From Olivibacter domesticus (lineage in GTDB: Bacteria; Bacteroidota; Bacteroidia; Sphingobacteriales; Sphingobacteriaceae), in the NCBI RefSeq assembly GCF_900109575.1, contig NZ_FOAF01000001.1, positions 124,001 to 188,000 of the forward strand: a DNA stretch of 64,000 bases, given 5' to 3'. A program made the position numbers and the translations under genes. Under the pieces are notes generated by a model. That model did not search any database. It was not told the DNA's origin and was given only the letters and a program-made list of their open reading frames with translations. Below are positions 2,809 through 43,975 of this stretch, one piece after another. How positions within the stretch are numbered: the stretch's first letter is position 1; the number at the start of each line of letters is the position of its first letter.

Positions 2809-2975
2809 CTTCTCACAATTTCTCATTATTCTCTTGCAAATAATAAAACCATTAATTAGATTAGTACTATCAAACTAAAATATACCACTAAACCAAATAG
2901 AAAGTTAATAAAAATATAAGTTAACAAGTCGAAGGGACTTCTTTCCATGATGAGAAGAGGCTACCTCGAAGTGTT
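2809..2975. repeat. Dispersed structured repeat, family 2, copy 1
   Basis: This segment shares blocks with 43555-43645, 46191-46450 and 47205-47407: TTGCAAATAATAAAA, TCAAACTAAAA, ACCAAA, CAAGTCGAAGG and CTACCTCGAA. Between the last two blocks a short stem is kept but with its own sequence: CTTCT at 2938-2942 pairs with AGAAG at 2953-2957. Confidence 0.6.
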
Positions 2976-3328: not shown

Positions 3329-4255
3329 ATGGCAACTAAGCAAAAAGACCTAACTAGCAAGAAAGAGATGGCAAATTTGGCGGCGGGAGATCCGATCGTA
3401 TCAGATTTAGCGAATGTAACCCCCATAGCAAGTATACGTTATCTCACACAAGAGGAGTACGATGCGCTGTCTGTGAAAAGTATCAATACTATTTACATCA
3501 CACGTGGATACGTTGCTGAACTATTAACCCTAATCGATTTCGCAACAGCCGCGGGTTATACCCTTCCTAATGAACTAGATTTAAGAAAGCTGAACACACT
3601 TATCAAAAACCTGAAATTCGATTATATCTGGGATCGCTTAGATCTATTTTATATTTTCGCAAATTCCGGAGATGATAATTTCAGAACACTTAATTATAAA
3701 AATCCATCAGCTTTCAAGGGAGATAAATTAGGAGGATTGATGAGAAGCGTAAGTGGGTTCGAAGGAAACGGAATAGACGGATATATAAAAACCAATTTTT
3801 CTGGGTCTGCCAATGGCGTCAATTATTTACAGAATGATGCGAGTAGAATATGCTACGCCTATAAAGCAAGTACAGATAGTAGCAATGCTAATCTCTCCGT
3901 TATCGATGGTGTTGAAAGCTTATCGCCCAATCGCTTTTCGCTGGCAAACACGGTAACCCATCGCATCAACCAAGAGAATGCAAATCTCGCGACCGCTGCC
4001 GATATGAGTGGAACAGGATACAGGGCTATTCAGCGAAATATCGCTGCCAGTATCGGTCTGGTGAAAGATGAAACTATAACAACCCATGCCGCACAGTCCA
4101 CGACGCGACATTCAAATGCACAAGTTATATTTAGAGCTGCCGTATCATCATGGAGCAATATTGGCCTTAGTTTTTATGCAATGGGAGGCGCTTTAACATT
4201 AGAGCAGCATAATGCATTTAGAAAACATTTCATCAATTATTTACAACAGTCATGA
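3329..4255 (+). CDS. Phage tail-fibre/head-fibre-like protein (pair 1)
   Basis: This 308-residue protein has no signal peptide. Its N-terminal segment YLTQEEYDALSVKSINTIYI resembles the LTQxEYDAL...NTIY motif of Bacteroidota phage fibre proteins. A Lys/Leu-rich helical linker follows at about residues 65-110. The C-terminal 190 residues look like a beta-sandwich (FEGNGIDGYIKTNFSG, then SIGLVKDET and GLSFYAMGGALT), as in phage adhesins that carry a lectin-like domain. Its stop overlaps the start of the glycosidase gene by 4 bp (ATGA), so the two are translationally coupled. No capsid, terminase, tape-measure or lysis genes are near. A role in carbohydrate binding is inferred. Confidence 0.6.
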   Translation: MATKQKDLTSKKEMANLAAGDPIVSDLANVTPIASIRYLTQEEYDALSVKSINTIYITRGYVAELLTLIDFATAAGYTLPNELDLRKLNTLIKNLKFDYIWDRLDLFYIFANSGDDNFRTLNYKNPSAFKGDKLGGLMRSVSGFEGNGIDGYIKTNFSGSANGVNYLQNDASRICYAYKASTDSSNANLSVIDGVESLSPNRFSLANTVTHRINQENANLATAADMSGTGYRAIQRNIAASIGLVKDETITTHAAQSTTRHSNAQVIFRAAVSSWSNIGLSFYAMGGALTLEQHNAFRKHFINYLQQS

Positions 4256-5508
4256 TATTCTTAGAAAAAGACAGAGCAAGGGGTATATCTCTGGGGCATC
4301 AAGAAATAGAAAACGTTTATGTGGGAGGGACGAAAGTGTTTCCGGATCAGATGTATAAACCCGTCATCGAACAACTTGGTTTTGCCGTTTACGCCACGAC
4401 GAACCGGGCTATGGGAGGAGGAAATACAAAATACACGAAGGCGCTGACCCAGCAAGCGCAGATGAATCTATTAAAGGAATGCAGAGCAAGATGGTGCAGA
4501 GCAACCGTCTATCCTAAATGGGATGGCGATTTAAACAATACACCCGGAAATGGTGGAGGAAATTATGGTAACTTCATTACCAGATATACCAACTGGATCA
4601 ATTTATGTGTGCAAAACAACATTAAGGTTTCGACCTGTGTGATTGATTCGTTAAGCACTGTGTACGGAAATATTGGTGGCGGCACCAATACCACAGATAT
4701 AAATAGCGCTACCGCGACTGACAAAACAAACGCTTATAACGCCGGATTTTTATTGGGTAGTGGCTTCATGTCACGTTACGGCTATCTTCAGTTAAGACCA
4801 GTTATAGAACTATCCAATGAAATAGAACTATTCCGTGATATTCTAAGGGAAGGGAATACAGGTGGAGGGTTACTGGCATCTGACTATTTCCCCAATAAGG
4901 TTGCAGTGGCAGTTTCCTATTTTAAAGGCATGGCCGAGGGGATTAAATCTATCAACCCGGATACAATAATCACAACACCGGCAAGCTCAGGTTACAAGCC
5001 ACTTTATCTGTATGACTTACTAATTAATGAAATACCCATTATAGATTGGGTAAATTGGCATTGGTACTCCGACATGCAGGCGAATGTGGGAGCGGGAAAC
5101 TTTCCGAATACAGGCCAGGGAGTTGCCAATATTTTTGATTTTTTGTATATGCGTTGGGGGAAACCGCTTATCATGACCGAAATGAATCAGCGTGGCATTG
5201 GTTATAATGGCGCAGTTGATGGTCCGGAAAGCGGAGATTTACATCAAGATAAACAGGTCGCTTATTGGAACAAGATGTTGCCATTGGTGCTAGAAAGAAG
5301 CTTTATTAAAGCAGCTATCTGTTACGCGCAGTTATCAGACCCCTATAATTCCAGTTCAGTAGAAAGCACTTATGGCGTTTATTATTTTCCAGGGTTGGAT
5401 ACTAGTCTACCGCCAGGAGATCAAGATCTTACGGGTTTGTTAACACCAAAAAAAGTCGTTAGTTTTTTTAAGGAATATGTCGTCAAAGGAAGGAATGGTG
5501 ACATTTAG
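4252..5508 (+). CDS. Clan GH-A-type glycoside hydrolase with phage-like N-terminus (pair 1)
   Basis: This 418-residue protein has a TIM-barrel glycosidase pattern. N189-E190 in VIELSNEIELF fits the Asn-Glu acid/base of clan GH-A, and E310 in LIMTEMNQRG fits the nucleophile. The WVNWHWYSD block (about residues 266-274) fits strand 6. The first 30 residues (IENVYVGGTKVFP) resemble the start of phage receptor-binding proteins, and there is no signal peptide. The substrate is unknown. It overlaps the fibre-like gene by 4 bp. A paralogue lies downstream at 6414-7595, and both end with a YFPGLDTSLP block followed by a Lys-rich tail. Confidence 0.7.
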   Translation: MIFLEKDRARGISLGHQEIENVYVGGTKVFPDQMYKPVIEQLGFAVYATTNRAMGGGNTKYTKALTQQAQMNLLKECRARWCRATVYPKWDGDLNNTPGNGGGNYGNFITRYTNWINLCVQNNIKVSTCVIDSLSTVYGNIGGGTNTTDINSATATDKTNAYNAGFLLGSGFMSRYGYLQLRPVIELSNEIELFRDILREGNTGGGLLASDYFPNKVAVAVSYFKGMAEGIKSINPDTIITTPASSGYKPLYLYDLLINEIPIIDWVNWHWYSDMQANVGAGNFPNTGQGVANIFDFLYMRWGKPLIMTEMNQRGIGYNGAVDGPESGDLHQDKQVAYWNKMLPLVLERSFIKAAICYAQLSDPYNSSSVESTYGVYYFPGLDTSLPPGDQDLTGLLTPKKVVSFFKEYVVKGRNGDI

Positions 5509-5634
5509 ATTATTTCATATAAGGAAAAATCTTTATGAAACGTAGTTCAGCCACATTTGCTAAACTCTTGTAAAAAAAATAGAATTAAAAATAATAACGC
5601 TAATAAATATTAAATTATAATTAACAATAAGATT

Positions 5635-6411
5635 ATGGCAACAAACGCTGAATTGGTTGAAATAACAACCGGACCTGGCCCTAATGGGCAACTATTTAAT
5701 GTCGGTACTTACATAATGAATAGACGTATTAATCAGAATTCACCATGGAATGTACAGACCACGGCTCCAGAAACTCCGTATGGCATATCTGCGGTTATTC
5801 CCGCAACAGCAGGTTTAAGTTACTTTTTAAGTTGGACAGCTGGTACAGCAATTAGGTCTTATAGATTTTTGGACAGCGCGCAAGTGGCAATTGCAGGAGG
5901 GATGTGGGCACGAAACTCCGCTAAAATTGCTCCTGAAAATGCTGCCTATGTGCAAATCACCTGTAGATGGGAGAATGAGACAGCAATACCCAGTGACTTA
6001 AAACTGGAAAAAGGTACTGCAAAAACACCAGGTACACAATACGAGGATTACGTGATAGCCTTAAACGGAATGAAAATATTGGCAAATGGCGGTGTAGGTT
6101 TAAGGTCAGACCCGGTTCAGGTTTTAGGTACAACGATTGACGGTTCGCTTTCAAGTGTTTTCTATACGGTTATCACTGCTACTACAGCAAATAATTATAC
6201 CTATACATTGAACTCTTTGATAGAAGGTCAGCGTTATGATTTCATGGTACAGAATGATTCGGCTATCCCTTTAGCTATAGCTTTTTCTGGTTTGGATTAT
6301 TTCTTTGGTAGCCAAATAAACCTGGTGCCTAGAGATAGAAGGGGCATATTCAGCATTATCCAAATAAATGGTAAATTAAACATTGCCTGTGCAGTACAAC
6401 CAGAACCTTAA
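5635..6411 (+). CDS. Phage structural/fibre-like protein (pair 2)
   Basis: This 258-residue protein begins MATNAELVEITTGPGPNGQ. Like the gene at 3329 it starts ATGGCAAC and directly precedes a glycosidase gene. A jelly-roll-like section (about residues 35-125, including YFLSWTAGTAIRSYRFLD and YVQITCRWEN) ends in LKLEKGTAKTPGTQYEDY. That last block is very common in phage proteins with carbohydrate-binding modules (LExGxxxTxyepy). No signal peptide is seen. The gap to the glycosidase ATG is 2 bp. The sequence is not an obvious copy of the pair 1 partner, so the pairs share architecture more than sequence here. Confidence 0.55.
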   Translation: MATNAELVEITTGPGPNGQLFNVGTYIMNRRINQNSPWNVQTTAPETPYGISAVIPATAGLSYFLSWTAGTAIRSYRFLDSAQVAIAGGMWARNSAKIAPENAAYVQITCRWENETAIPSDLKLEKGTAKTPGTQYEDYVIALNGMKILANGGVGLRSDPVQVLGTTIDGSLSSVFYTVITATTANNYTYTLNSLIEGQRYDFMVQNDSAIPLAIAFSGLDYFFGSQINLVPRDRRGIFSIIQINGKLNIACAVQPEP

Positions 6412-6413
6412 TT

Positions 6414-7595
6414 ATGTTTGGAGTAATAGGAAATAAACCTGACATCATTATTCCTCAAGGTAGGGATTTTAGATGGGGTGCCGTGCTCGCTTCTACAACA
6501 CACAATCCTAGTAGCGGTTACGGTGGCTACACATTAGCCCCAACAATAGATGATTATCTCGATAAACTAGTAGAAGCTGGTGGGCAGGCGGTGCGATTGT
6601 ATGCTGAACCGAATCCTGAAGGAGACCTTAATAATACCTCTCCACCCCCAGCATACGGCAATATGCACAATATCTTTATTGATGCAATTAGCAAATGCCA
6701 TCAAAGAGATCTTCATTGTATTATTCTTTTAATGGATAGAATCCGGGATATTAAATATATTCCAACTGAAGATAATCCTGAAAATAAGTCAGTTTGGAGC
6801 TTAAAAACAGATTTAGATACTTACAGAGAATCAGAAGCTATTGCCACTGCTGAATATGCCACAAAGTTTATGCAGCGATACAATCAATACCTTGATCCTC
6901 AGAAAGACATTCTTGAAATAAGCAACGAACCGGAGTTATTTCGAAATTTACAGAGACCTGAGACATCTGGCGCAGTAAGAAACCAATACTTTGAGAATAA
7001 AACAGATACCTTTCTGAAGCATGTATCGGAGGTCGCTAAACGAATCAGAACGGCGAATCCTGCGATAAGAATAGCAACTCCAGCCAATATTGCTTGGAAA
7101 CAATTTTATCTAATGGACAGATACATTGCCGATTTTTCATATTATAGGTATTTGAATTTACATTGGTATAGTAATCAGGAGCGAAATATGAGGAATGGAA
7201 TATTTGAACCAGGAGTTTCTGACGTGACCATTTTCTACAGTGACAAATATAATATGGATCTGATTTTTACCGAATTTAATCAAAGGGGGATAGCTTTTGG
7301 CGGGGCAAATGATGGCCCAGAAAGTGGCGATAATCATCAAGCAAGGCAGATCAAGAATTTTGAGCAGGTTTTCCCCAAGTTTATTAAAAATCCCCGGGTT
7401 AAATATGCGTTGATATATCAGTGGTCTAGCCATCCGCATGGAACAAGTGCTACAGAAGGATCTTACGGTATACTATATTTTCCCGGATTGGATACTAGTT
7501 TGCCGAAAGACCAGCAGAATATGAAGGCACTTATGGCGCCCAAACGATCATTCTACTGGTTAAAAGGGATAATCAATAAAAATCTAACTCCATGA
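6414..7595 (+). CDS. Clan GH-A-type glycoside hydrolase (pair 2)
   Basis: This 393-residue paralogue of the protein at 4252-5508 keeps the same order of motifs: acid/base N171-E172 in ILEISNEPELF, the LNLHWYSN block at about 248-255, and nucleophile E287 in LIFTEFNQRG, followed by GANDGPESGDNHQ. It lacks the short phage-like N-terminal tag and has no signal peptide. The substrate is unknown. The 3' end is duplicated as a 35-codon fragment 36 kb away (43871-43975), which shows that this locus has taken part in recombination. A structured repeat follows the stop codon. Confidence 0.7.
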   Translation: MFGVIGNKPDIIIPQGRDFRWGAVLASTTHNPSSGYGGYTLAPTIDDYLDKLVEAGGQAVRLYAEPNPEGDLNNTSPPPAYGNMHNIFIDAISKCHQRDLHCIILLMDRIRDIKYIPTEDNPENKSVWSLKTDLDTYRESEAIATAEYATKFMQRYNQYLDPQKDILEISNEPELFRNLQRPETSGAVRNQYFENKTDTFLKHVSEVAKRIRTANPAIRIATPANIAWKQFYLMDRYIADFSYYRYLNLHWYSNQERNMRNGIFEPGVSDVTIFYSDKYNMDLIFTEFNQRGIAFGGANDGPESGDNHQARQIKNFEQVFPKFIKNPRVKYALIYQWSSHPHGTSATEGSYGILYFPGLDTSLPKDQQNMKALMAPKRSFYWLKGIINKNLTP

Positions 7596-7632: not shown

Positions 7633-7782
7633 TTGAGCCGGGGCACAAATGGCCTCATTAAATAAGCATAAAGACGATCCAGGGTTTGCAGTGGTCAAAA
7701 AATTATGTGAAGAAGCGAAGAGAAGATTGTGGAGGGAGCGGCTGCACAGGATTGAGTGTAGACCCTAAATCACTAACCAAAA
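7633..7782. repeat. Dispersed structured repeat, family 1, copy 1 (type C)
   Basis: It shares with five other places in the window the blocks GGGGC, GTGAAGAAGCGAAGAG and GGAGCGGCT.CACAG. The outer arms GATCCAGGGT (7676-7685) and ACCCTAAATC (7762-7771) pair at 8 of 10 positions. The paired sequence differs from that of the other copies. Confidence 0.6.
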
Positions 7783-7920: not shown

Positions 7921-7969
7921 ATAATGTTATTTGTTTTATATGTACTACATATAAAACAAATAACATTAT
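7921..7969. promoter_or_regulatory. 49-bp perfect palindrome
   Basis: Arms of 24 bp at 7921-7944 and 7946-7969 are exact reverse complements around a single central C (7945). It ends 28 bp before the ATG of the Asp-box gene. It is AT-rich and could be a large operator, a cruciform, a transcript-end hairpin for the glycosidase genes or an attenuator. Confidence 0.75.
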
Positions 7970-7997: not shown

Positions 7998-9152
7998 ATG
8001 GCTTACTGTAGAAAAAGGATCGTCAACATACAACTGATTTTTACATTGGTGCTGGCTGCTCTTGTGTTGGATCTGTCGGCCCAAGACGCAACCCCCAAGC
8101 TAATAGAACAAAAAGTACATAAGACCATCGTGTGGAAAGAAAGAGAGAACGGTCTGTTTGCACATTTTGTTTATGGTCTTACTGTGACGGATAAAGGCAG
8201 CATACTTGCCTTTGCAGAAGCACGGGTAGAAAATAGCCTGGATGATGGCGCACATCATATCGTTTTAAAAAGAAGTATAGATAAGGGGCGGAGCTTTTCA
8301 GCATCACAGGTTCTTGTTAAAAGTGTGGATAGCCAATCCTGGGCCAATCCTACAGCGCTGCAAGATCGAAAAACAGGGGAGATATTTCTCTTTTACGCCT
8401 TGAACCGTCAAAACATAAGTACAGAAGTATTTTATATCACGAGCAAAGACGATGGACTTAACTGGTCGGAACCTGTAAACATAACTTACCTCTTCAAAAA
8501 CAATGAACATCAATGGACATTTCATCTGCCTGGCCCCGGGCACGGTATTCAACTTAAAAACGATCGTTTGTTGATTCCCGTATGGAACCGGAAAGCAGTT
8601 TCCTTTACCCCAAAAGAAAGGAACTATGGTGTTAACTGTCTTTACAGTGATGATCATGGTAAAACCTGGAAATTAGGAGGAGATACACCTGTTGGAGAAC
8701 TGAACGAATCACAGATCGTAGAACAAGAAAGCGGCGATGTGATGCTTATCGGACGTACTTATTCATCTAGTAATAATTCATGGCAAGCGAAAGTGATCAG
8801 TAAGAACAAAGGTCTTAGCTGGTCAAAGCAAATAGCATACGACCATGGATTAACAGGAAAGGCTTGCGATATTGGGTTGGTGAGCTATCCTAAACCTGGT
8901 ATAGTGTTGGTTTCGCAGCCGGCCAATATTAAGAAAAGGATGGATCTTACCATCAGAATGAGTAAAGATAACGGGAAAACATGGTCAGTAAATAAGCTGC
9001 TTCAGGCAGGCGGCGCTACGTATTCAGATTTGGCAGTGCTTCCCGACAAAACGATTATATGTCTTTATGGTCATGGAGGTACGGAACATATGCCCCAAAA
9101 CGTTTCACTGTCACGTTTTAATTTGGAATGGCTTCAAGAAAAAACAAAATAA
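7998..9152 (+). CDS. Secreted Asp-box (BNR) sialidase-like protein
   Basis: This 384-residue protein has an N-terminal signal peptide (hydrophobic core IFTLVLAALVLDLSAQ, cleavage near residue 29). Five Asp-box-like repeats follow: SIDKGRSF, SKDDGLNW, SDDHGKTW, SKNKGLSW and SKDNGKTW, as in six-bladed GH33 sialidase propellers. The first blade reads HFVYGLTVTDKGSILAFAEAR. The F/YRIP motif that supplies an active-site Arg in true sialidases is not preserved, so activity on sialic acid is doubtful. It may be a related propeller hydrolase or lyase. It stands alone behind the 49-bp palindrome, 6 kb from the sugar locus. Confidence 0.75.
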   Translation: MAYCRKRIVNIQLIFTLVLAALVLDLSAQDATPKLIEQKVHKTIVWKERENGLFAHFVYGLTVTDKGSILAFAEARVENSLDDGAHHIVLKRSIDKGRSFSASQVLVKSVDSQSWANPTALQDRKTGEIFLFYALNRQNISTEVFYITSKDDGLNWSEPVNITYLFKNNEHQWTFHLPGPGHGIQLKNDRLLIPVWNRKAVSFTPKERNYGVNCLYSDDHGKTWKLGGDTPVGELNESQIVEQESGDVMLIGRTYSSSNNSWQAKVISKNKGLSWSKQIAYDHGLTGKACDIGLVSYPKPGIVLVSQPANIKKRMDLTIRMSKDNGKTWSVNKLLQAGGATYSDLAVLPDKTIICLYGHGGTEHMPQNVSLSRFNLEWLQEKTK

Positions 9153-9225
9153 CATGTAAATAAACATTACTAAATATACTTGGAGGCTGTGTACTGGTTT
9201 ACTCGCATAAATGTACAAAATCTAC

Positions 9226-9262
9226 TGTCCGTTTTCGTACAGTAACCGTTCATTAACGAACA
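9226..9262. promoter_or_regulatory. Paired operator half-sites upstream of the FtsX-type permease
   Basis: TGTCCGTTTTCGTACA (9226-9241) and CGTTCATTAACGAACA (9247-9262) are two imperfect inverted repeats with starts 21 bp apart. The same arrangement, with 20-bp spacing, precedes the FtsX remnant at 34954. They resemble upstream activator sites for an NtrC-type enhancer-binding protein. Confidence 0.55.
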
Positions 9263-9316
9263 GCAAGAAACTCACTAATGTGAGCTAACAGGGCTTTTAA
9301 ACTATTTAGACCCTGA

Positions 9317-9332
9317 TGGCAGCGTTCTTGTT
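9317..9332 (+). promoter_or_regulatory. Predicted sigma-54 (-24/-12) promoter
   Basis: TGGCAGCGTTCTTGTT has GG and GT separated by 10 bp, a near match to TGGCAC-N5-TTGC with GC replaced by GT. It lies 25 bp before the permease ATG and about 55 bp after the paired operators. The same arrangement precedes the FtsX remnant at 34954. Confidence 0.55.
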
Positions 9333-9356
9333 TCCCGTTAATGAAAAAGCTGTTTT

Positions 9357-11753
9357 ATGATAAGAAATTATCTCAGGATCGCATTGCGTAACCTCAGAAA
9401 AAGTCCAGGATATTCATTTATTAATATATTCGGACTTGCTTCAGGACTAGCCTGTTTTATTCTCATCCTGATTTTTGTGCAGCATGAAATTTCATACGAC
9501 ATATTTCACAAAAATGCAGATCAGATATACCGCGTTATACAGCGTCGGCCGGGTGCTGGCGGAGCAAAATACTGGGCTGCCACATCACCGGCTTTAGCAG
9601 GCAGCCTCCGGCAGGAATTTCCAGAAGTAGCGGTTGCCACCGCCGTATTTCCAACATCTAATCCACTATTAAGCTTGGGTGAAAAACATTTTACAGAAGA
9701 AGGCATCCTCGCTGATAATCATTTTTTTGATGTATTTACCTATTCTTTCTTGCAAGGCAATGTAGGTAAAGCGCTAAAAGACCCCAACAGTATGGTGCTT
9801 ACCGCCTCCTTGGCACATAAGATCTTTGGCAACAAAAATCCTATGGGGCAGACGGTGATGTATCAGAATAAATATCCTCACATTGTTACCGGTGTTATAG
9901 AAGACGTGCCCGAGACCTCCCATCTAAGCTTCAGTTATATCCTTCCCGCAGTATCTGACCAATACTACCAAGACTGTATATCCAGAGAACCTTGGTATAA
10001 CAATGGCTTGTATACCTATGTGGCGCTAGCCAAGGGAGCAAATGTCCAGCAGATTGAGAAAGGGATGCGTAAGTATATTGACAGAAATTTGGCAGACTGG
10101 AGACCGGAAGATCGCATGACTTTTTTGTTTCAACCCTTGAAAGATATCCACCTCAAATCGCAACACCTACAAACCTTCACCTTTGAGAAAAGCGGAAATT
10201 ACAAGTTTATGTACCTCTTTTTAGCCATTGGCTTCATTGTGTTAATGCTTGCTTGTGCCAACTATACAAATCTTGCCGTTGCACGTTCCATCCGTAGAGC
10301 CCAAGAAGTCGGTATACGAAAAGTAGCTGGTGCTTGGCGTTGGCAGCTTATCGGCCAGTTTCTGGGTGAGTCGTTAATTATGGCCTTTTTAGCGCTTATA
10401 TCCGCAGTTGTAATGGCCCATTTAATATTGCCTTCATTCAGTCGACTGGTAGAACGCCCCATACGAATGGAATACCTCACAAACCCCACGCTCTTACCAG
10501 GCCTGTTACTGTTAGCCCTATTGGTAGGTCTCATTTCCGGCAGCTATCCCGCGTTCATCATGAGCAGGCTTAAACCGGTTCAAGTACTTAAGGGAACGCA
10601 AACAAAACTAGCAAACCGTTTTACCTTACAACGAATACTAACCGTTGGGCAATATGCGGTTTCCATTGCGCTTTTGGTTGGAAGCTTTATTATATACAAG
10701 CAAATGCAGCTAGTCCAACATCAGCAATTAGGCTACAATCGTGACCATGTGTTAACTATCAAGGTTAATGATGAAACTTTGAGTCAACAATACGCCACTA
10801 TTCGTGAAGACCTCTTGCGTGATCCTCATGTCACTGCCATGAGCTATTCGCAATACTTGCCTACCACCGTGATGACCATGCAAAGCATGTCGCGCTGGGA
10901 GGGGAGCGGCGATCAACTACTGCCAAGCAATACCAGCAGCGTTGATTATGATTTTCTTGACGTTTATGGCATCCAACTCGTTGCCGGCCGCGGATTCTCC
11001 CGTGAGTTTGGTACAGACACCCTGGGCGCTCCCATTGCACTCATTAATGAGTCGGCAGTAAAAGCACTGGGATGGACACCCAAACAAGCTATCGGTAAGG
11101 AGTTTAACTATTCCGACGGCCGCGGCAAGAGAAGCATCGTTGGTGTAGTAAAAGACTTTCACTTTAACTCCATCCACCAGTCATTAGGGCCACTTGTGCT
11201 GACCCTTAACCGAGAATCTGGCGGCTATATTTCTGCGAAGGTCCGACCAGAAGATCTCGCGGGAACAATCGCGCGGTTTGAAGACGCCGTTAAACGGATC
11301 AGCCCATATCCTTTTGAATACGAGTTTCTCGATGATAATTTTAATAAGCTATACAAAAATGATCTAAGGCTGGGAGAAATATTTACTTCATTTACCCTAT
11401 TGGCCGTACTAATTGCCTCTTTAGGTTTGTTCGGATTAGCCGCCTATTCCACACAACAACGCATGAAAGAAATTGGTATACGCAAAGTGTTGGGAGCATC
11501 CGTTCCGGGCATCATAAGGTTATTAAGCAAAGATTATCTTAAGCTTGTACTTATCGGCTTTGTCATCGCTGCACCATTGGCTTGGTACGTTATGAACCGC
11601 TGGTTGGAGGACTTTGTTTACCGAATTGATATGAGCTGGTGGATTTTTGCCCTAGCAGGCGCGTTTGCATTAATGATTGCTTTGCTTACCGTAATCTTTC
11701 AATCATTAAAAGCAGCATGGATGAATCCGGTAAAGACATTAAAAACAGAATAA
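9357..11753 (+). CDS. FtsX/MacB-type ABC transporter permease
   Basis: This 798-residue protein is a long Bacteroidota MacB-like permease. The N-terminal helix follows IALRNLRKSPGYSFINIFG. A periplasmic MacB_PCD domain spans about residues 45-270. A three-helix FtsX domain at about 285-410 contains RRAQEVGIRKVAGA. A second periplasmic domain spans about 450-660, and a final FtsX domain contains QRMKEIGIRKVLGAS (about 700). It ends NPVKTLKTE. Such permeases couple to a separate ATPase for export or stress responses. No ATPase gene is adjacent. Two C-terminal fragments of related permeases occur at 34954 and 41271. Confidence 0.9.
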   Translation: MIRNYLRIALRNLRKSPGYSFINIFGLASGLACFILILIFVQHEISYDIFHKNADQIYRVIQRRPGAGGAKYWAATSPALAGSLRQEFPEVAVATAVFPTSNPLLSLGEKHFTEEGILADNHFFDVFTYSFLQGNVGKALKDPNSMVLTASLAHKIFGNKNPMGQTVMYQNKYPHIVTGVIEDVPETSHLSFSYILPAVSDQYYQDCISREPWYNNGLYTYVALAKGANVQQIEKGMRKYIDRNLADWRPEDRMTFLFQPLKDIHLKSQHLQTFTFEKSGNYKFMYLFLAIGFIVLMLACANYTNLAVARSIRRAQEVGIRKVAGAWRWQLIGQFLGESLIMAFLALISAVVMAHLILPSFSRLVERPIRMEYLTNPTLLPGLLLLALLVGLISGSYPAFIMSRLKPVQVLKGTQTKLANRFTLQRILTVGQYAVSIALLVGSFIIYKQMQLVQHQQLGYNRDHVLTIKVNDETLSQQYATIREDLLRDPHVTAMSYSQYLPTTVMTMQSMSRWEGSGDQLLPSNTSSVDYDFLDVYGIQLVAGRGFSREFGTDTLGAPIALINESAVKALGWTPKQAIGKEFNYSDGRGKRSIVGVVKDFHFNSIHQSLGPLVLTLNRESGGYISAKVRPEDLAGTIARFEDAVKRISPYPFEYEFLDDNFNKLYKNDLRLGEIFTSFTLLAVLIASLGLFGLAAYSTQQRMKEIGIRKVLGASVPGIIRLLSKDYLKLVLIGFVIAAPLAWYVMNRWLEDFVYRIDMSWWIFALAGAFALMIALLTVIFQSLKAAWMNPVKTLKTE

Positions 11754-11849
11754 TGATAAGATTTTTTCTATGGCAGCAGTTACTTAAAAAATCGAACTTG
11801 GCGAAGAAATGTGGATAACTCCTGTTATATGCAATATATTCTTGTTGAA

Positions 11850-12098
11850 TGGCTTTTTATTATAGATCACTGGCAAGTCAAACGGGGCTCGTGAGCTAGG
11901 GCCCAAACGGCCTCATGGATTGAGCGTAAAGATGATTTAGGCCCGCTATGGCCTAAAAATCATGTGACGAAGCGAAGGGGTGGTCGGTGATGGGAGCGGC
12001 TCCACAGGATGAGCGAAAGCCCTGAATCATTAGCGAAGTCCGTGCAGCCTTGGACTTTGATTACTTTGGGCCAATCCAAAGTAATATATAAATTCCCA
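11850..12098. repeat. Dispersed structured repeat, family 1, copy 2 (type A)
   Basis: It starts inside the right half of a terminator-like sequence (ATGGCTTTTTATTATAG), as if a copy had been cut there. Outer arms ATGATTTAGG (11932-11941) and CCTGAATCAT (12021-12030) pair with one G-T wobble. The 3' part (TTGATTACTTTGGGCCAA, then CCAAAGTAATATATAAA) forms its own 10-bp hairpin and recurs at 46146-46186. Confidence 0.65.
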
Positions 12099-12740
12099 TT
12101 ACAGTTTTCGCTTGTTACTTTCAATCGTAATAAACTCAGGCAAATATTCTGGAGTACATCCTTTTGATACCATCTTACCTTTGTAAAGACCAGTTTTTTC
12201 TCCAAGTGCAATACAACGATTCCTGTGTTTTTTGTCATAAACGCCAATCCAGCCCGCTGTAAAATTCATTGCCCACTGAACTTCCGGCTCTTCTTTTTCA
12301 ATTTGGTTTTCAATTTTAGATAATAACGCTTCATTATTTGACGGAGGAGTTTGTCCCATCCAACGTAAACGACCCTGATAATACCAGAAAATCCTCCTTT
12401 GAAGTGAGGAAGGACTATTCTCCCAAGATTCCATCAGTACTATGGTTTTCTTGTCTTTGGATAGTTGATTTGCCATTAGCCAATCAATCAAATGATTCCT
12501 GTCGTCTTCTTTATGTCGTTTGATATCCTTATCCAGCTTATCTACGAATGCTTGCGAAAGAAGCTTTTTGTCCATAATCAAAATTGCCAACTGTCGGGCT
12601 AAGTATTTTTCCGTTGCCCATAGTTCTATAGCCAAATCGTGGTCCTTTTTTATATCGTTTGCAATTTTTCTTAGATCTCCCAGTTTGGTTTTATCGTCTA
12701 TTTGATTTAAGATATTTTCGGCTTTTGAAGAAAGTTTCAT
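12099..12740 (-). CDS. DNA alkylation repair protein (AlkD-like HEAT repeats)
   Basis: This 213-residue, mostly helical protein matches the AlkD/DNA_alkylation family, including ELWATEKYLARQLAILIMD, LIDWLMANQLSKDK and EVQWAMNFTAGWIGVYD. Family members are HEAT-like-repeat glycosylases that remove bulky or positively charged alkyl bases. The C-terminal WAMNFTAG block fits the last repeats. The length (about 210-230) is typical. The gene is convergent with the permease and shares its 3' flank with a structured repeat. It lies 38 bp beyond the stop of the reductase gene (12778-13344) on the same strand, which suggests a two-gene transcript. Confidence 0.8.
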   Translation of the reverse strand: MKLSSKAENILNQIDDKTKLGDLRKIANDIKKDHDLAIELWATEKYLARQLAILIMDKKLLSQAFVDKLDKDIKRHKEDDRNHLIDWLMANQLSKDKKTIVLMESWENSPSSLQRRIFWYYQGRLRWMGQTPPSNNEALLSKIENQIEKEEPEVQWAMNFTAGWIGVYDKKHRNRCIALGEKTGLYKGKMVSKGCTPEYLPEFITIESNKRKL

Positions 12741-12777
12741 ATCGATTATGTTAGTTATTTAACGAATGCACTTTACG

Positions 12778-13344
12778 TTAGCGGTTCGTTGTTTTTTCAT
12801 TTGTAGGTTTATAGTAGAGCGTTACAGCACCACCGCTAAAAGTTTTTGTCTTTATAAGTTTAAGAACGGTTCGGTCTTTTATATTTTCAAATAAGGGCAA
12901 ACCTGTTCCCGCTATAACAGGATGAATACAAAGTTGGTATTCATCAATCAAATTAAGCTTCATTAGTTGTATAATTAAACTCCGACTGCCAACTAAAATG
13001 TCCTTACCCGATTGTCGTTTGCGTTCCAAAACTTCTTTTTCAAGGTCTTGACTTGCTAATTTCGCACTTTTCCAATCTACATTTTTCAGTGTGCGGGAAA
13101 AAACAATCTTCGGGATGTTGTCCATTGCGATTGCAAAGTCGTCCATTGCTTTATCGCCTGTGGGATTTTCCAGCACAGTTCGCCAAAATTCCATAAGCTG
13201 GTAGGTTATCCTGCCATATAAGGCGATATCAGCGCTTCTTAATAGGTCGGCGTAATGTTGATGTATTTCTTCATCAGGAACACCTGAGGTATGGTCACAA
13301 AACCCGTCAAGCGTCATATTGATTGCTGCAACTAGTTTCCTCAT
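12778..13344 (-). CDS. Dihydrofolate-reductase-fold protein (RibD C-terminal family)
   Basis: This 188-residue protein starts RKLVAAINMTLDGFCDH, the usual start of RibD-C/DHFR-like proteins of Bacteroidota. It also has ALYGRITYQLMEFW, IPKIVFSRTL and KDILVGSRSLIIQLMKLNLID, which fit the NADPH-binding Rossmann-like strand order. Substrates of this family are mostly unknown. They are usually not true dihydrofolate reductases. It is upstream of the AlkD-like gene on the same strand. Confidence 0.85.
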   Translation of the reverse strand: MRKLVAAINMTLDGFCDHTSGVPDEEIHQHYADLLRSADIALYGRITYQLMEFWRTVLENPTGDKAMDDFAIAMDNIPKIVFSRTLKNVDWKSAKLASQDLEKEVLERKRQSGKDILVGSRSLIIQLMKLNLIDEYQLCIHPVIAGTGLPLFENIKDRTVLKLIKTKTFSGGAVTLYYKPTNEKTTNR

Positions 13345-13545
13345 ACTGTTTTGTTTAAATCAATCGTCAAATTTCTTTCAGCTGGTAGATTTTCCTCTAT
13401 CATCTGTTACAATGACCACTAATAATTGTTTATACAAAACTAATTTACAAAATGTTTCACTAATCCATCTATATTCGAATTTCGCATTTTGAAATTTTAT
13501 TAGGTGTAATATATTGATTTTTAACCTATCAGCTGGCGTTACAAA

Positions 13546-13845
13546 ATGAAAGAAGAGCTGTTAAAGAGTGATAATCCTTTTGCCATAGCCATATTGGTGG
13601 GAAGAACAGCATTCGCAGGAAATAGAATAAAAGATAGCCAGGAACACGATGCAGTACTGATGAAGCTTAAACTACAATAGTTGAGGAAGCTAATCGAGAG
13701 AAAGACCAGAAGCCGTGATGTGGTAGAAAACCTATTAAGCAAACTGGGTTTAAATGACGAACAAGCAGCGGAAGTTGCTGAGGTATCCATTGAATTTGTC
13801 CAAAAGATCCGCGCACAATTGAACAAAAAGAAAAAACTAGATTAA
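13546..13845 (+). pseudogene. Remnant of an Rpn-family nuclease gene (C-terminal part)
   Basis: Reading from ATG 13546 gives KEELLKSDNPFAIAILVG and then, after an in-frame TAG at 13678-13680, RKLIERKTRSRDVVENLLSK and the final KKKKLD. The NPFAIAI...LK.KL..L.RKLIER pattern is the C-terminal region of Rpn/PD-(D/E)XK transposase-like proteins. The nuclease domain is missing and there is an internal stop, so it is broken. A terminator and a family 1 repeat follow at once, the same order as behind the intact Rpn genes at 29400 and 45026. The family call is from pattern memory. Confidence 0.5.
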
Positions 13846-13867
13846 TAGTTTTAAAAATATATATTAC

Positions 13868-13899
13868 AAGCCATGCATTTTAAATGTATGGCTTTTTTC
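13868..13899 (+). terminator. Rho-independent terminator behind the Rpn remnant
   Basis: AAGCCATGCATTT and AAATGTATGGCTT form a 13-bp stem with one G-T pair, followed by TTTTTT. It is nearly the same hairpin as the ones at 30304 and 45909 behind the intact Rpn genes. Confidence 0.85.
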
Positions 13900-14110
13900 T
13901 TATAAATCGCTGGAAAATCAAGCGGGGCTCTTGCGCGTTCGGACAAAACGGCCTTCTAGCGCGAGCATTAAAAAATTCAGTCAGCGCTAAAGATTAGAGA
14001 GCTGTGAAGAAGCGAAGAGAGGGTAGTAGGGAGAGCGGCTCCACAGAACTGCGGGTAAGAACTGAATTTTTAGCGAGCGCTAGACAGCCTTGATGTTTAT
14101 TCATTAAGTG
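13900..14110. repeat. Dispersed structured repeat, family 1, copy 3 (type B)
   Basis: It follows a terminator directly. Outer arms AAAAATTCAGT (13971-13981) and ACTGAATTTTT (14061-14071) are perfect complements. The inner CTGTG...CACAG pair and the GAGCGGCTCCACAG block are shared with the other copies. Its flank (TTTATTCAT...TCATGAACTCG, to about 14140) also recurs at 30546-30587. Nothing coding was seen up to 14235. Confidence 0.7.
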
Positions 14111-14235
14111 TTCCTTTTAATGGTATTCATGAACTCGTCGCCAGCTCCTCGGTTGACCCACTTTGCATCCAAGGTAAAGTGGGAATATATAGGGCATGTG
14201 CGTCATGATAAAAGTGTTCTAGATTGGGTAGGAGT

Positions 14236-15129
14236 TTAACTTAGATAAATATTATAACGTCGTCTGAAATCCTTTGGCGTATAGCGCGTAACGCGTTTGA
14301 ATTGCCGATAAAAATTAGAGAGATTGTTGAAGCCACAGGTATAGCAAATCTCATCAATCTGTAAGGTATTTTCAGATAACAGTTTGCAGGCGTGATTAAT
14401 GCGGACTTCGTTCAAAAAGTCGGCATAGGTTTTTTTTGTCATTATTTTAAAGTACCGACAAAATGAAGTCATCGTCAAATTGCTAACAGAGGCAATTTCT
14501 TTCAGCGAAATGTCTTTAGTGAAATTGTTGAGTGTGTAATTATAGATGCTGTTCATTCTCACCATATCTCCCTCTGTAGCTTTCAAGAAGGGAAACATTG
14601 TACTGATATTTCGATATTCCTGTGTTTTGGTTAATATCTCTAATATCTCCAATAATAAGATGACTTTCCGTAAGTCTTCTGCCATGACAGCTTGCATCAT
14701 CAGTTGCTTCAATTGCTCGCGGCTGGTACCGAAAATCTGCATACCCCGTTTCGCTTTTTCAAATAGCCGCATTAAGGCGTTTGTTTCAGGTAAGTTTAAG
14801 AACTCATGTCCTAAACAAGAGGATGAAAAATGTACTACAATCGCTTCGACATAATTTTCTGCATATTTTTCAAAATAGTCCTCTTGACAGTGCCAAGTAT
14901 GGGGCAGGTTTTCTCCTAACAGAAGTAACTCTCCGGCATGAAAACTGCCAACATGATCGCCAACTAAACGCGTACCCTCTCCTTTTACCACATAATGTAA
15001 TTCCAACTCAGGGTGATAATGCCAAACATTACCAAAATTGGGCTGTACGTCATGTCGAACACTAAATGAGCTCCTCATCTGTATCGGTACTTTGTGAAAA
15101 TGTGGTTTCATATTGGCTTTTGCTATCAA
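14236..15129 (-). CDS. AraC-family regulator of the sugar-uptake locus
   Basis: This 297-residue protein has an N-terminal cupin-like sensor (about residues 20-110, with NVWHYHPELELHYVVKGEG and LLLGENLPHTWH). Its C-terminus carries two AraC helix-turn-helix motifs (about 195-295: ISLKEIASVSNLTMTSFCRY and IDEICYTCGFNNLSNFYRQF, ending RYTPKDFRRRY). The gene is divergent from the symporter gene with 338 bp between them. This is the usual arrangement for a local activator that senses the sugar, so it probably controls the 15468-25192 genes. Confidence 0.9.
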   Translation of the reverse strand: MIAKANMKPHFHKVPIQMRSSFSVRHDVQPNFGNVWHYHPELELHYVVKGEGTRLVGDHVGSFHAGELLLLGENLPHTWHCQEDYFEKYAENYVEAIVVHFSSSCLGHEFLNLPETNALMRLFEKAKRGMQIFGTSREQLKQLMMQAVMAEDLRKVILLLEILEILTKTQEYRNISTMFPFLKATEGDMVRMNSIYNYTLNNFTKDISLKEIASVSNLTMTSFCRYFKIMTKKTYADFLNEVRINHACKLLSENTLQIDEICYTCGFNNLSNFYRQFKRVTRYTPKDFRRRYNIYLS

Positions 15130-15467
15130 TTAAATAAACAATAAGCTATCTAGGTTAGGATAGACAGCCGCTGCTATACAGATACATAGTTGGTTAAGTA
15201 TGAATGTCGTTAGCTTTTATGTCAACATCCTATAACGACACAAACATATAGAAAGTGGTTTTATTATACAAGCTTTTGGCCTTATTGATCTTTGAGCAAT
15301 TATTTTAATCAGCTTGTAAATACCATTAGACGACAATAAGCACAGGTGTCCATTATACATAGGATAAAATTGTACAAAAACTCGGCAATTCAGGGCAAAT
15401 CGGTACCTCTAAAAAGTTAGCATTTTTGTTTCCAGTAAACCATTATTATACCTAACAAGCAAAACCA
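15130..15467. promoter_or_regulatory. Divergent promoter region, AraC gene / symporter operon
   Basis: This 338-bp AT-rich gap lies between two divergent genes and must hold both promoters and the likely AraC operator. I could not assign a repeat pair or a -33/-7 promoter reliably. No ORF in it looks real. Confidence 0.5.
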
Positions 15468-17033
15468 ATGAATAAGTTACCAATTGTGGATCTGTGTATT
15501 ATCGGCCTGTATCTCATCGCAATGATCGGTGTTGGTTTTTGGTTTTCATTTCGGAATCAGCGTGCAGATCAGTTTACCAAGGCTTCCGGAAACATCCCTT
15601 CCTGGGCGATAGGGCTATCCATCTATGCTACCTTTCTAAGTAGCAATACCTTTTTAGGGGTTCCCGGCAAAGCTTTCGGAAGTAATTGGAATGCCTTTGT
15701 TTTTAGCTTGTCTATGCCGGTAGCTGCCTTTTTCGCCAGTCGTTTCTTCGTGTCCTTTTATCGCCGTTCGGGTGAGGTTTCTGCCTATACCCATTTAGAG
15801 AAACGCTTTGGACCATGGGCTAGAACCTATGCTGTTACCTGTTTTCTATTAACCCAGCTAGCCCGTATCGGTTCCGTATTTTTTGGTGTAGCGCTAAGCC
15901 TACAAGCGCTTACGGGCTATTCGATGGAACTTATCATGACGGTCACCGGCATATGCATCATTATCTACACCGTATTAGGTGGCATAGAAGCTGTAATATG
16001 GACAGAAGTGGTGCAAGGTGTCATTAAAACCTTCGGTGCAGTACTCATCCTTTACTTATTGATCGATCGTATAGATGGAGGCTTTGAAACGATCAATTGG
16101 GTTGGGGTTAGCGAAAAGAAAATCAGTTTAGGAAGTTTTGATTTCGATTTTAATCATTCCACTTTTTGGGTCATCTTTCTATATGGGGTGTTTATCAATC
16201 TGAATAATTTCGGAATGGATCAAAACTATGTACAGCGTTATCATGCAGCGAAATCGCCCAAAGATGCTGCACGATCTATTTGGTTATGTGTTTGGATTTA
16301 TGTGCCTACTTCTCTGCTGTTTTTCCTAATAGGCACTTCCTTATATGTGTATTATCAAGCCAATCCCGCATTAATCGAGCCTGTAAAATTACAAGCTGCG
16401 GCTGAGCGTCTAGGATCAGGGGCTACAGCGACGGAAATCTCCCGCCTTGCAGCCACCTTGCAACCTGCGGATTATGGGGATAAAGTCATGCCGCATTTTA
16501 TGGTTACGCAAATACCCACCGGTCTAATTGGCATCATCATCTCGGCTATCCTATCGGCCGCTATGAGCACGATAAGTTCTGGCATGAATGCCAGTGCTAC
16601 CGTTTTTGTTGAAGATATCTATAAACGCTATTTCAAAGCCCCTACCAACGAACGGACGACATTACGTGCCTTACATATTGCCACGGTCGTCGTTGGTCTG
16701 TGTGGTATGTCTGCAGGAATCGCGATGATCGGTATATCCAGTGTGCTCGACTTGTGGTGGGTACTTTCCGGCATTTTCGCCGGCGGTATGTTAGGCTTGT
16801 TTCTGCTGGGATTGGTTAGCAAATATGCACGCAATGCCGATGCGGCGATTGCAACCGCTGTCGGGATCATCATCATTATCTGGATGACCTTTTCGGAGTA
16901 CCTGCCACAAGATATGGAATCCTTAAGGAGCCCGCTAGATAAAAATATGATCATTGTGGTGGGTACACTCAGCATTTTTCTGATAGGAAGCCTGCTGTCC
17001 CGTTTACGTAGTTTCTCCCGTAAAAATATATAG
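15468..17033 (+). CDS. Sodium:solute symporter (SSS family), probable sialic acid/sugar acid uptake
   Basis: This 521-residue membrane protein has about 13 predicted helices. It carries the SSS signatures GIGFWFS-like start (MIGVGFWFSFRNQRADQF), SIYATFLSSNTFLGVPGKAF and ISAILSAAMSTISSGMNASA. The Ser/Thr-rich ILSAAMSTISSG block forms the Na2 site in this family. SSS members such as SiaT import sialic acid with sodium. It is the first gene of an operon with a NanA-like lyase 27 bp downstream, which supports import of a keto-sugar acid for cleavage. The substrate is inferred. Confidence 0.85.
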   Translation: MNKLPIVDLCIIGLYLIAMIGVGFWFSFRNQRADQFTKASGNIPSWAIGLSIYATFLSSNTFLGVPGKAFGSNWNAFVFSLSMPVAAFFASRFFVSFYRRSGEVSAYTHLEKRFGPWARTYAVTCFLLTQLARIGSVFFGVALSLQALTGYSMELIMTVTGICIIIYTVLGGIEAVIWTEVVQGVIKTFGAVLILYLLIDRIDGGFETINWVGVSEKKISLGSFDFDFNHSTFWVIFLYGVFINLNNFGMDQNYVQRYHAAKSPKDAARSIWLCVWIYVPTSLLFFLIGTSLYVYYQANPALIEPVKLQAAAERLGSGATATEISRLAATLQPADYGDKVMPHFMVTQIPTGLIGIIISAILSAAMSTISSGMNASATVFVEDIYKRYFKAPTNERTTLRALHIATVVVGLCGMSAGIAMIGISSVLDLWWVLSGIFAGGMLGLFLLGLVSKYARNADAAIATAVGIIIIIWMTFSEYLPQDMESLRSPLDKNMIIVVGTLSIFLIGSLLSRLRSFSRKNI

Positions 17034-17060
17034 GCCTTTAACAATTTATCCATTTATTAT

Positions 17061-17999
17061 ATGAACCAGCAAAAGAAAAAATTTGTACCTGTGATGCTCA
17101 CACCTTTTTTAGAAAATGGTGCCGTTGATTTTGAGGGATTAACGCAACTCACTGAATTCTATTTAGAGGCAGGCGCATCTGGGCTTTTCGCCAATTGCCA
17201 GTCGAGCGAAATGTACCACTTGCAACCAGAAGAACGCATTCAGGTTACCAAACATATTGTCAGAACAGCCAATGGAAGAGTACCTGTAGTAGCTACAGGT
17301 AGCTTTGGAGGGACGATTGCTCAACAGGTGGATTTTATCAAGAACCTTCATGACCAGGGTACAGAAGCCATTATCTTAATAAGTGGCATTTTGGCCAATA
17401 AAGAGGAAGACGATGACATATTTCGCAAGCGTTTCTATCAATTGCTTGATCGTACAGAGGGAATACCTTTCGGTTTTTATGAATGCCCCGAACCCTACAA
17501 GCGTCTCCTACAGCCTAATCTCTTGGCAGAGTTTGTTGATACGGGCCGCGTCATTTATCATAAGGACACCTCTTTAGACATTCAGCAGGTACGTGAGAAA
17601 ATAGCAGGTACCCAGCATTGCGCAGCCTTCGGCCTTTATGACGCTTATATGGCGCATGCGGTAGCCTCTTTGGAAAGTGGCGCTGCAGGACTATCGTGCA
17701 TACAGGGAAATTATTTTCCAGAATTGGTGGTTTGGTTATGCCAGCATTATGCGCAGAAAGAGAATCAGACGATGGTTAATTGCGTACAGCAGTTCTTCAT
17801 AAAGCATATGGACCTCATGCATACCAATTACCCTCTTATTGTCAAATTTTATCTACGTAAACGGGGTCTAGGCATCGGCACTTTTTGCAGAACATCACAT
17901 ACCGACTTGGATCACCTCGTAAAGATCGGTTTGGAAGAACTTGAGCGCGAGCGGAAACTTTTGTTCGAGCAATTGGGCATCACTGCCGTGCTGGGTTGA
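17061..17999 (+). CDS. DapA/NanA-family aldolase (probable sugar-acid lyase)
   Basis: This 312-residue protein is a class I aldolase of the DHDPS/N-acetylneuraminate lyase family. The N-terminus VPVMLTPFLENGAVDFEGL is typical. K168 in IYHKDTS fits the Schiff-base Lys and Y140 in FGFYECPEPYKR fits the catalytic Tyr. The usual GTxGE loop is changed to NCQSSEMYHL (residues 45-54). YECP in place of YN(I/V)P marks a distinct subgroup, so cleavage of N-acetylneuraminate is possible but not certain. Its place between the symporter and SusC suggests it acts on the imported sugar in the cytoplasm. Confidence 0.8.
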   Translation: MNQQKKKFVPVMLTPFLENGAVDFEGLTQLTEFYLEAGASGLFANCQSSEMYHLQPEERIQVTKHIVRTANGRVPVVATGSFGGTIAQQVDFIKNLHDQGTEAIILISGILANKEEDDDIFRKRFYQLLDRTEGIPFGFYECPEPYKRLLQPNLLAEFVDTGRVIYHKDTSLDIQQVREKIAGTQHCAAFGLYDAYMAHAVASLESGAAGLSCIQGNYFPELVVWLCQHYAQKENQTMVNCVQQFFIKHMDLMHTNYPLIVKFYLRKRGLGIGTFCRTSHTDLDHLVKIGLEELERERKLLFEQLGITAVLG

Positions 18000-18079
18000 A
18001 CAGTCGCCATAATGAATTAGCAGTAGCGGTGCGGGGAGCACCATCAGGTATATCACGTTAACTAACTAATTATTTAACC

Positions 18080-21000: not shown

Positions 21001-21145
21001 TTCTGGACAGAACCTGTATACCATTACGGATTATACAGGTTTCGATCCGGCGCTAAATCCCAATGGAGGAGCCAATTTCCGGATGGACTGGAATGCCTAT
21101 CCTGCTCCGCGTACTTACCTTTTTGGTGCAACCTTAAATTTTTAA
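18080..21145 (+). CDS. SusC/RagA-type TonB-dependent outer-membrane transporter
   Basis: This 1021-residue protein starts with a signal peptide (to VLAQ, residue 26). A carboxypeptidase-D-like regulatory domain follows (about 27-115, VRISGSVANELSGEMLPGAS). Then come the TonB box and plug (EEIVVVGYGTVKKSDITGSV, about 116; SIEILKDASATAIYGSRGANG, about 228), and the beta-barrel ends in YLFGATLNF. It imports a glycan with the SusD lipoprotein encoded 4 bp downstream. No FecI/FecR pair is present and the AraC gene is the likely regulator. Confidence 0.95.
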   Translation: MKTIVKIKVVVSTALLLMCINEVLAQVRISGSVANELSGEMLPGASVKVVGATIGVSTDEKGNFSLQVPNLQVSLSISYMGYLPSEIKLNNRNALKILLTPDASQLEEIVVVGYGTVKKSDITGSVTALKRADFNEGPIASADQLFFGKAPGVQVVQNSGEPGGGFSVNIRGAGSINAGNSPLYVVDGLPLDNSTVVSGGGENFTNSRAPRNPLNTINPADIESIEILKDASATAIYGSRGANGVVMITTKKGKAGRLSITYDAYGGIQQVANNIKLLNAGEYQQVMNDIIDAGGGSENDRVATLTNDGTDWLGSVFRKNAPTHNHNLSFSGGNENTQFNTSFNYYSQDGLIINSAFKRYSARLNLEHRVKENFKLGVNINTSYTKDDFVPNGFDLNERAGVIYAAINYDPTLPVWADNGRYFLSPNMNIDNPLAIANGKDAFSNSYRTFGTAYAEYNFLNGFKAKINVGGDIVSQRTDTYIDRSTIDGLAAGGIGSIEQGKNSNYLGEATLSYNRSFAEHQVNAVVGMTGQKFIDDNFFASARGFASDATGTNNLNLGDPLTRQTTSNKGINSLLSYLARINYSYKDKYLFTTAFRADGSSRFGENNRFGYFPSFALGWKIKEEDFMKSINSISSLKLRTSWGRTGNQEIGNYQSLSTLSSGWTAVLDGTQVIGIAPSRIPNPNLKWESSEQVNIGIDFGLFKDRISGTIDWYKKDTKDMLLNLPVPRSSGFSTMMTNVGSVQNSGLELGITSSNLVGAFQWTTTAMFTTLRNKVKSLGGIPNIITGSAGSTSQVAIIQEGEPLNSFYGYQIVGVWQENDDFSSTVDNVQAGDFKYLDVNGDKTVNAADRVIIGKSFPDFTYSLTNNFQYKGFGLYIFIEGVQGVSMLNNNLVDTYFPPNLRRNRLAEPLLNRWTQQNPSNIYPSFVTPNTQGQKGVNNYTVEDASYIRLNTVRISYNLPIKSGPIAGATIYVSGQNLYTITDYTGFDPALNPNGGANFRMDWNAYPAPRTYLFGATLNF

Positions 21146-43870: not shown

Positions 43871-43975
43871 GATACTAGTTTGCCGAAAGACCAGCAGAAT
43901 ATGAAAGCACTTATGACGCCAAAGAAGTCTTTTTACTGGCTAAAAAGTATCATAAATAAAAACTTAACGCCATAA
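43871..43975 (+). pseudogene. 3'-end fragment of a fibre-locus glycosidase gene
   Basis: The frame reads DTSLPKDQQNMKALMTPKKS, then FYWLKSIINKNLTP, then stop. It matches the last 34 codons of the gene at 6414-7595 (DTSLPKDQQNMKALMAPKRS), and the first 26 bases are identical. Everything upstream in that gene is missing here. Confidence 0.9.

Follow-up and report, generated by a model that had tools for sequence, protein, structure and literature searches.

We find that four consecutive genes in a 64,000-nucleotide stretch of Olivibacter domesticus DNA (contig NZ_FOAF01000001.1, positions 124,001 to 188,000; hereafter the window) are probably the tail-tip region of a phage, made up of two pairs of a structural protein and a depolymerase, that was either stranded after prophage loss or carried in as a fragment. 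The genes, F1, G1, F2 and G2, lie in series on the + strand at positions 3329-7595 of the window. In the list of open reading frames (ORFs) all four frames are intact and sit exactly where the original prediction had placed them:

F1, 3329..4255, + strand, 308 aa; candidate tail-tip protein with PF24243 at aa 35-58 and an Elemovirus-related body at aa 61-305
G1, 4252..5508, + strand, 418 aa; predicted glycosidase of clan GH-A with E190 as acid/base and E310 as nucleophile; lacks a signal peptide
F2, 5635..6411, + strand, 258 aa; fibre-like, without a family
G2, 6414..7595, + strand, 393 aa; G1 paralog, E172/E287, no recognizable adapter

The host genome comprises 6.78 Mb in 23 contigs, and the window is on contig C10 (2.47 Mb). 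The start of G1 overlaps the end of F1 by 4 bases and G2 begins two bases behind F2; the F2-G2 pair repeats the layout of F1-G1. The GC content of the quartet (0.39-0.42) is close to that of the neighboring genes. The claim that the proteins lack signal peptides is borne out by their hydropathy: no N-terminus in the quartet is hydrophobic (best 12-residue mean 0.45-1.22), whereas the same measure reaches 2.66-3.32 in four exopolysaccharide (EPS)-type or lipoprotein relatives of G1.

F1 is related to phage proteins

Judging from its sequence, F1 is phage-derived. Residues 35-58 match the Pfam family PF24243 (E = 7.6e-8; 32 bits versus a curated cut-off of 23.7), and residues 61-305 are 32% identical to a protein of Flavobacterium phage elemoA_6-5A, genus Elemovirus (7e-22; 80% coverage), whose gene is near a chaperonin pair, amid small phage genes. 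A search for fibre families in phage genomes, as had been suggested with the original prediction, matched the F1 body to 76 phage records from 68 Flavobacterium, 7 Sinorhizobium and 1 Microcystis phages. Within the phylum, F1 is found in 2 of 395 genomes, its own and G444, and the second copy adjoins the portal, terminase and head genes of a Mu-like prophage. Among 100 relatives of the host, F1 occurs in its own genome only and is missing from four other Olivibacter genomes. By sequence, F1 gave two chance matches only in the PDB, and a scan of viral contigs found nothing, which is weak as absence given that this was a short-pattern scan. A single-sequence structure model of F1 was unusable (pLDDT 31).

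The description of the partner proteins as fibre-like thus stands for F1, which matches a curated model, and in F2 reflects appearance: no Pfam, PHROG or NCBIfam family matches F2 above a cut-off. Among the 395 genomes of the phylum, F2 is present in its own genome only. Compared with each other, F1 and F2 are unrelated.

The F1-G1 pair has the layout of prophage tail tips

Only three of the 400 genomes searched in the order have PF24243 (Phage_tail_C): the genome studied here, G007 (locus L117) and G381 (locus L126). The latter two loci are prophages. Neighbors of the PF24243 gene in L117 encode a GH19-type endolysin, a Dit-like protein and a prophage tail endopeptidase; L126 has a terminase by Pfam, and other ORFs there look head-tail-like by eye. 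Like F1, whose last 4 bases are shared with G1, the PF24243 gene runs into the next ORF, by 4 bases in L117 and 1 base in L126, and this next ORF carries a C-terminal effector or binding domain. Given that the overlap layout is shared with two prophages of the order, F1-G1 is best read as a tail-tip structural protein and a receptor-degrading enzyme. Of the roles first suggested for these genes, a receptor-degrading module is the likely one, based on this two-gene layout, the GH-A fold and the active site. The quartet differs from both prophages in that PF24243 is near the N-terminus of F1, the effector is a GH-A glycosidase, there are two tandem pairs, and no tail genes surround them.

In both prophages the ORF behind the PF24243 gene starts with a short adapter, to which we compared the N-terminus of G1:

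Adapter-bearing ORFs, L117 8084-9517 and L126 9663-10703; short N-terminal element of the YIGDTLVW / MLGSSLVW type
Putative tail-docking adapter of G1, 4282..4347, + strand; aa 11-32, GISLGHQEIENVYVGGTKVFPD

Behind the adapter, EVTRRYIGDTLVWE, the G007 ORF has a hydrolase-like part that includes a PHB-depolymerase-type segment (below the model cut-off), and the G381 ORF, with the adapter AKGYIGSTEVQKIMLGSSLVWQ, continues into a domain of unknown type. Searched on its own, the G381 adapter has 265 matching phage records (E up to 1; best 1e-4), mainly from mycobacteriophages and Gordonia phages. In the four phage regions that we opened, the adapter occupies the first codons of an ORF that immediately follows another. 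SkiPole and Stormageddon have adapter-bearing minor tail proteins behind tail proteins (the Stormageddon match was obtained with the G007 adapter, not that of G381), while the adapter is on a hydrolase in NiceHouse and on an unnamed protein in Troje. Common to Bacteroidota prophage tip proteins and mycobacteriophage minor tail proteins, it is possibly a tail docking element that crosses phyla.

G1 begins with ARGISLGHQEIENVYVGGTKVF, which resembles the prophage adapters. Pairwise comparison of the G1 adapter gave 2/2000 shuffles against the G007 prophage enzyme and 25/2000 against that of G381. A profile made from six phage adapters, G1 not among them, ranks G1 first of 199 N-termini (first 45 residues; E = 0.046); run on full-length ORFs, the same profile gives G1 a rank of 5 of 199 and an E-value of 0.84, which is not significant. 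A stricter adapter motif, written after the sequences were known, finds G1 alone among 441 ORFs. These results are only suggestive of an N-terminal tail adapter in G1.

G1 and G2 are predicted clan GH-A glycosidases

G1 and G2 are 33% identical, and both are predicted to be TIM-barrel glycosidases of clan GH-A. We aligned 28 rows, comprising 26 of 30 loci from named genomes and the two window proteins; L085, L098, L109 and L113 were left out for an unsettled or unlisted frame, a contig end or an overlong start. N189, H270, W271, Y272 and E310 (G1 numbering) are invariant in 28/28 rows, and position 190 is E in 25 rows and D in 3. The catalytic residues were named correctly in the original prediction (N189-E190 and E310 in G1; N171-E172 and E287 in G2). 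An AlphaFold2 model of G1 on this alignment (pTM 0.80; mean pLDDT 74.5; residues 1-60 below 50) has E190 just after strand 184-186 and E310 within strand 306-312. Both glutamates of G1 are positioned at strand ends in the model, as expected of clan GH-A, and those of G2 are placed by alignment.

Structural comparisons also point to this clan. The best solved structures for G1 in Foldseek are beta-1,4-galactanases (GH53; 1e-9), with GH1, GH39 and PslG close behind; in VIA-align the model scores Z 22-24 against many GH1 chains and Z 23.3 against a GH39 enzyme; and a profile search matches GH1/GH53-type chains. Because several GH-A families are tied in structural re-ranking, with GH1 beta-glucosidases leading, we assign G1 to no family. 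Pseudomonas aeruginosa PslG (GH39), which is encoded in an exopolysaccharide operon, shares the GH-A barrel with G1 (Foldseek 3.1e-8), but it is 11% identical to G1, is not phage-borne and is not the top fold match. The best viral fold match is U3TJ01, an uncharacterized protein of Ralstonia phage RSB3 (E = 2.1e-15; TM 0.61 by both lengths; 18% identity), which matches over nearly the full length; its E-value surpasses those of all solved structures.

G1 matches no Pfam family at the curated cut-off; a Pfam match of G2 to GH44 (E = 0.0072) has 16.7 bits and falls below the cut-off of 25.1; and among PHROG and NCBIfam families neither protein reaches a curated cut-off or a convincing E-value. 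G1 has no match by sequence in the PDB and chance matches only in phage records at E 10, and a genome-contig scan with G1 alone gave no result.

Relatives of the enzymes lie in exopolysaccharide clusters

Relatives of G1 and G2 are found in 22 of 400 genomes of the order, their own genome included. Among genus and family relatives, 9 of the 10 that we scanned match Glyco_hydro_cc above the cut-off and the tenth below it. In a cluster on contig C19 of the same genome, the enzyme relative is beside four group-1 glycosyltransferases and is flanked by Poly_export, Wzz/tyrosine-kinase-type and EpsG-like (below cut-off) proteins. By eye on ORF lists, the gene order is like that of this EPS cluster in G001, G003, G004, G005 and G011. 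The EPS-cluster glycosidases of the Sphingobacteriaceae (PF11790 Glyco_hydro_cc / PF07745 Glyco_hydro_53) have the N-E and E residues and the H-W-Y motif of G1 and G2. They differ in their signal or lipoprotein N-termini and are 18-25% identical to G1, whereas G1 and G2 bear an inserted loop after E310 and a different C-terminus. We therefore classify G1 and G2, by these predicted features, as distant members of a family of otherwise secreted or lipoprotein glycosidases. Given that the relatives reside inside EPS clusters, the likely substrate of G1 and G2 is such an exopolysaccharide, a link that is seen for the relatives and that we infer for the two window proteins.

The tree that we built has 41 rows, after five duplicates were dropped and one Nannocystis row was added by hand. 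G1 and G2 group together in it (SH-aLRT 100), separate from all 39 other rows. The nearest rows are the EPS-cluster enzyme of G011 and the Nannocystis pusilla enzyme, on long branches that leave the placement unsure. The tree and the relatives are compatible with descent of the phage enzyme from a bacterial one, with the direction unproven. The Nannocystis pusilla protein (L085 4023-6203) is a myxobacterial relative of this glycosidase group in a cysteine-rich 726-aa frame.

An enzyme family that is otherwise bacterial could also mean that G1 and G2 are ordinary host glycosidases of a sialic-acid-type polysaccharide-use locus, their carbohydrate-binding partners having been mistaken for fibres. 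BNR/sialidase-like genes, a sodium:solute symporter, a DHDPS-family gene and SusC/SusD do follow at 7998-25192, a probable sialic-acid use locus. However, the quartet proteins have no signal peptides, F1 combines PF24243 with a phage-matching body, the genes overlap as in prophages, and a palindrome and 400 bases separate the quartet from the downstream sialidase-like gene. We regard this explanation as quite improbable.

Palindrome, probable terminator, 7921..7969, no strand assigned; between G2 and the next gene, 49 bases, 97.96% self-complementary

An intergenic repeat, dispersed and up to about 140 bases long, with a core that by eye looks imperfectly palindromic and REP-like, is found nearby at 7634-7775 and again at 11892-12032, 14003, 25804, 30443 and 46051.

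Search for the rest of the phage

With Pfam scans covering 43 of the 60 window ORFs of at least 100 aa, we found no phage structural gene other than F1, nor a phage tail cluster around the PF24243 gene. The flanks (40 kb upstream, 20 kb downstream) show no phage by eye on ORF lists, with two upstream ORFs scanned by Pfam. There is no tRNA in the window, and an Rfam scan of the window gave no result. The earlier observation that no phage lies nearby holds to this extent, the flanks being judged mostly by eye.

It had also been proposed to look for the missing structural genes elsewhere in the genome, and neither the terminase nor the sheath probe gave a true match there. The terminase probe phrog_2 has a single weak match (2.4e-5), by eye in a PhoH-like protein, and detects no true terminase; the same probe matched 13 of 14 control genomes, indicating that it also picks up non-terminase ATPases. 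The sheath family PF04984 has 0 matches in this genome and matched 3 of the 14 controls. The tube probe PF06841 has 0 matches as well, but no control genome matched either. The genome encodes no second PF24243 protein. From these data, a divergent prophage elsewhere in the genome is unlikely.

Two further explanations bear on these searches. In the first, an intact prophage, a phage-plasmid or a tail-like particle is encoded elsewhere in the genome, and the quartet is part of it. The division of the assembly into 23 contigs and the use of four probes leave some room for such a particle. Against it are the phrog_2 result, a PhoH-like gene only compared with matches in 13 of 14 controls, and the lack of a sheath and of a second PF24243 protein, and we consider it improbable. 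The suggestion that these genes are tail-tip parts of a phage-derived particle encoded elsewhere is accordingly retained as to origin, which PF24243, the Elemovirus match and the prophage layout support, and not as to location. In the second, the quartet serves a type VI system or an extracellular contractile injection system as its cargo or tip. Phage-like tip proteins without a head, as seen here, are typical of such systems. With 0 PF04984 matches in the genome, a probe that does find sheaths in 3 of 14 controls, and no baseplate genes in the window scans, we place very little weight on contractile injection.

History of the quartet

Two features record something of the history of these genes:

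G2-like remnant, 43871..43975, + strand; last 34 codons and stop, 36 kb downstream of the quartet
Promoter-like match TTG-N20-TAnnTTnG, 2834..2864, + strand; within a genome repeat, upstream of F1

The remnant is 91% identical to G2 in amino acids and 84% identical in DNA over 112 bases. Of the 17 changes, 13 are silent (dN 0.05; dS 1.65; ratio 0.03). This silent excess indicates that G2 and the remnant diverged long ago under purifying selection and that the remnant is not a recent local copy. On these alignments, two or more versions of the enzyme evidently entered this chromosome, or were long maintained in it, and one of them has since been largely lost. Near the remnant are a PD-(D/E)XK transposase gene (45026) and a member of a phage-type endonuclease family (47351; phrog_4225, 1.9e-126). 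Directly behind it, at 43985-44780, an open stretch resembling a C-terminal end precedes a small membrane-type protein, toxin-tail/immunity-like by eye. The endonuclease heads an operon-like run at 47351-52771 with a nucleoside 2-deoxyribosyltransferase/PfkB, a QueC-like protein, an HD phosphohydrolase and a 245-aa protein of unknown function, which looks like a nucleotide-modification or defense cluster.

The match upstream of F1 fits TTG-N20-TAnnTTnG, which we take to be the Bacteroidota-type promoter consensus. Copies of the repeat that contains it stand before different genes (window 2810-2970, 46181-46337 and 30631-30682; C10:1264300, C10:1249084 and C3:502959), and the copies at 46344 and 47271 have an extra 44-base signature in common. 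We dropped the repeat as a candidate RNA leader because this 3' signature of two other copies is missing at the F1 copy, which is thus described as a promoter-like match only.

These features bear on whether the host has domesticated the module, using it for EPS clearing at lysis, as a phage decoy or as a store of tips for visiting phages. Four intact frames, a host-type promoter-like repeat upstream, two pairs kept side by side and a dN/dS of 0.03 between G2 and the remnant, a sign of purifying selection on the enzyme lineage, would all be expected. On the other hand, F1 is missing from the other Olivibacter genomes and from all other relatives searched, no protein has an export signal, and the purifying selection may have acted in the phage. 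We judge domestication unlikely, if worth keeping in mind. A more elaborate version, in which the phage recruited bacterial EPS-cluster glycosidases and they returned without a virus, as tip depolymerases domesticated under a host-type promoter and serving as an anti-EPS weapon released by the cell or borrowed by phages, is unlikely too, and slightly more doubtful.

A model for the quartet

The proteins have neither export signals nor a virion that could carry them. The simplest reading, and the one that we prefer, is therefore that the quartet is a passenger or a stranded remnant. Several observations weigh against it. The frames are intact and the codon usage of the quartet (r to the host set 0.46-0.54) falls inside the spread of its neighbors (0.24-0.76), so that no decay is visible within it, and a host-type promoter match lies upstream of F1. 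At E 0.01, none of 50,697 phage records contains a sequence relative of G1, and neither G1 nor a G1+G2 alignment found one in viral contigs, where the short-pattern scans make absence weak; for F2, too, the phage records and, by short-pattern scan, the viral contigs yielded no relative. PF24243 is C-terminal in the proteins of the L117 and L126 prophages and N-terminal in F1, the adapter of G1 is statistically weak, and G2 is without any such element. The EPS-cluster enzymes of the same genome are about 20% identical to G1, at which distance a shared substrate is unproved. Finally, the genome-wide phage check consisted of a few probes (phrog_2, PF04984, PF06841 and PF24243). Given the intact frames and the host-like promoter, it is conceivable that selection has retained the genes.

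Within the stranded tail-tip reading, we infer the substrate, the location in the virion, the docking and the relic status. F1 would sit at the tail tip via its PF24243 domain, and G1 would dock beside it through its N-terminal adapter. The GH-A barrel would then cut the exopolysaccharide around the cell and allow the phage to reach the envelope. F2-G2 would form a second tip, perhaps for another type of slime. The rest of the prophage would have been lost, or the quartet would have arrived as a phage-borne fragment.

As predicted here, this is a tail-tip depolymerase pair of a known kind, with an enzyme group that is new by sequence to the phage records and viral contigs searched. Because the phage records contain no G1 relative, the EPS-breaching enzymes of the phages of this bacterial family appear hardly sampled. 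At the level of abstracts, our literature search found no account of orphan tail-tip glycosidases from this bacterial family. If the model is correct, G1 and G2 represent a new group of phage-type depolymerases, with predicted active sites, that are related to their hosts' own EPS-cluster glycosidases, and they would be candidate enzymes against Bacteroidota slime. It would also mean that a tail-tip pair can survive intact after its phage is gone, a point relevant to the storage and exchange of tail-tip alleles.

Other neighboring genes

Just left of the window, at C10:121487-123994 (L025 17487-19994), is a gene for a lantibiotic dehydratase (Lant_dehydr_N and C) of the class I lanthipeptide type.

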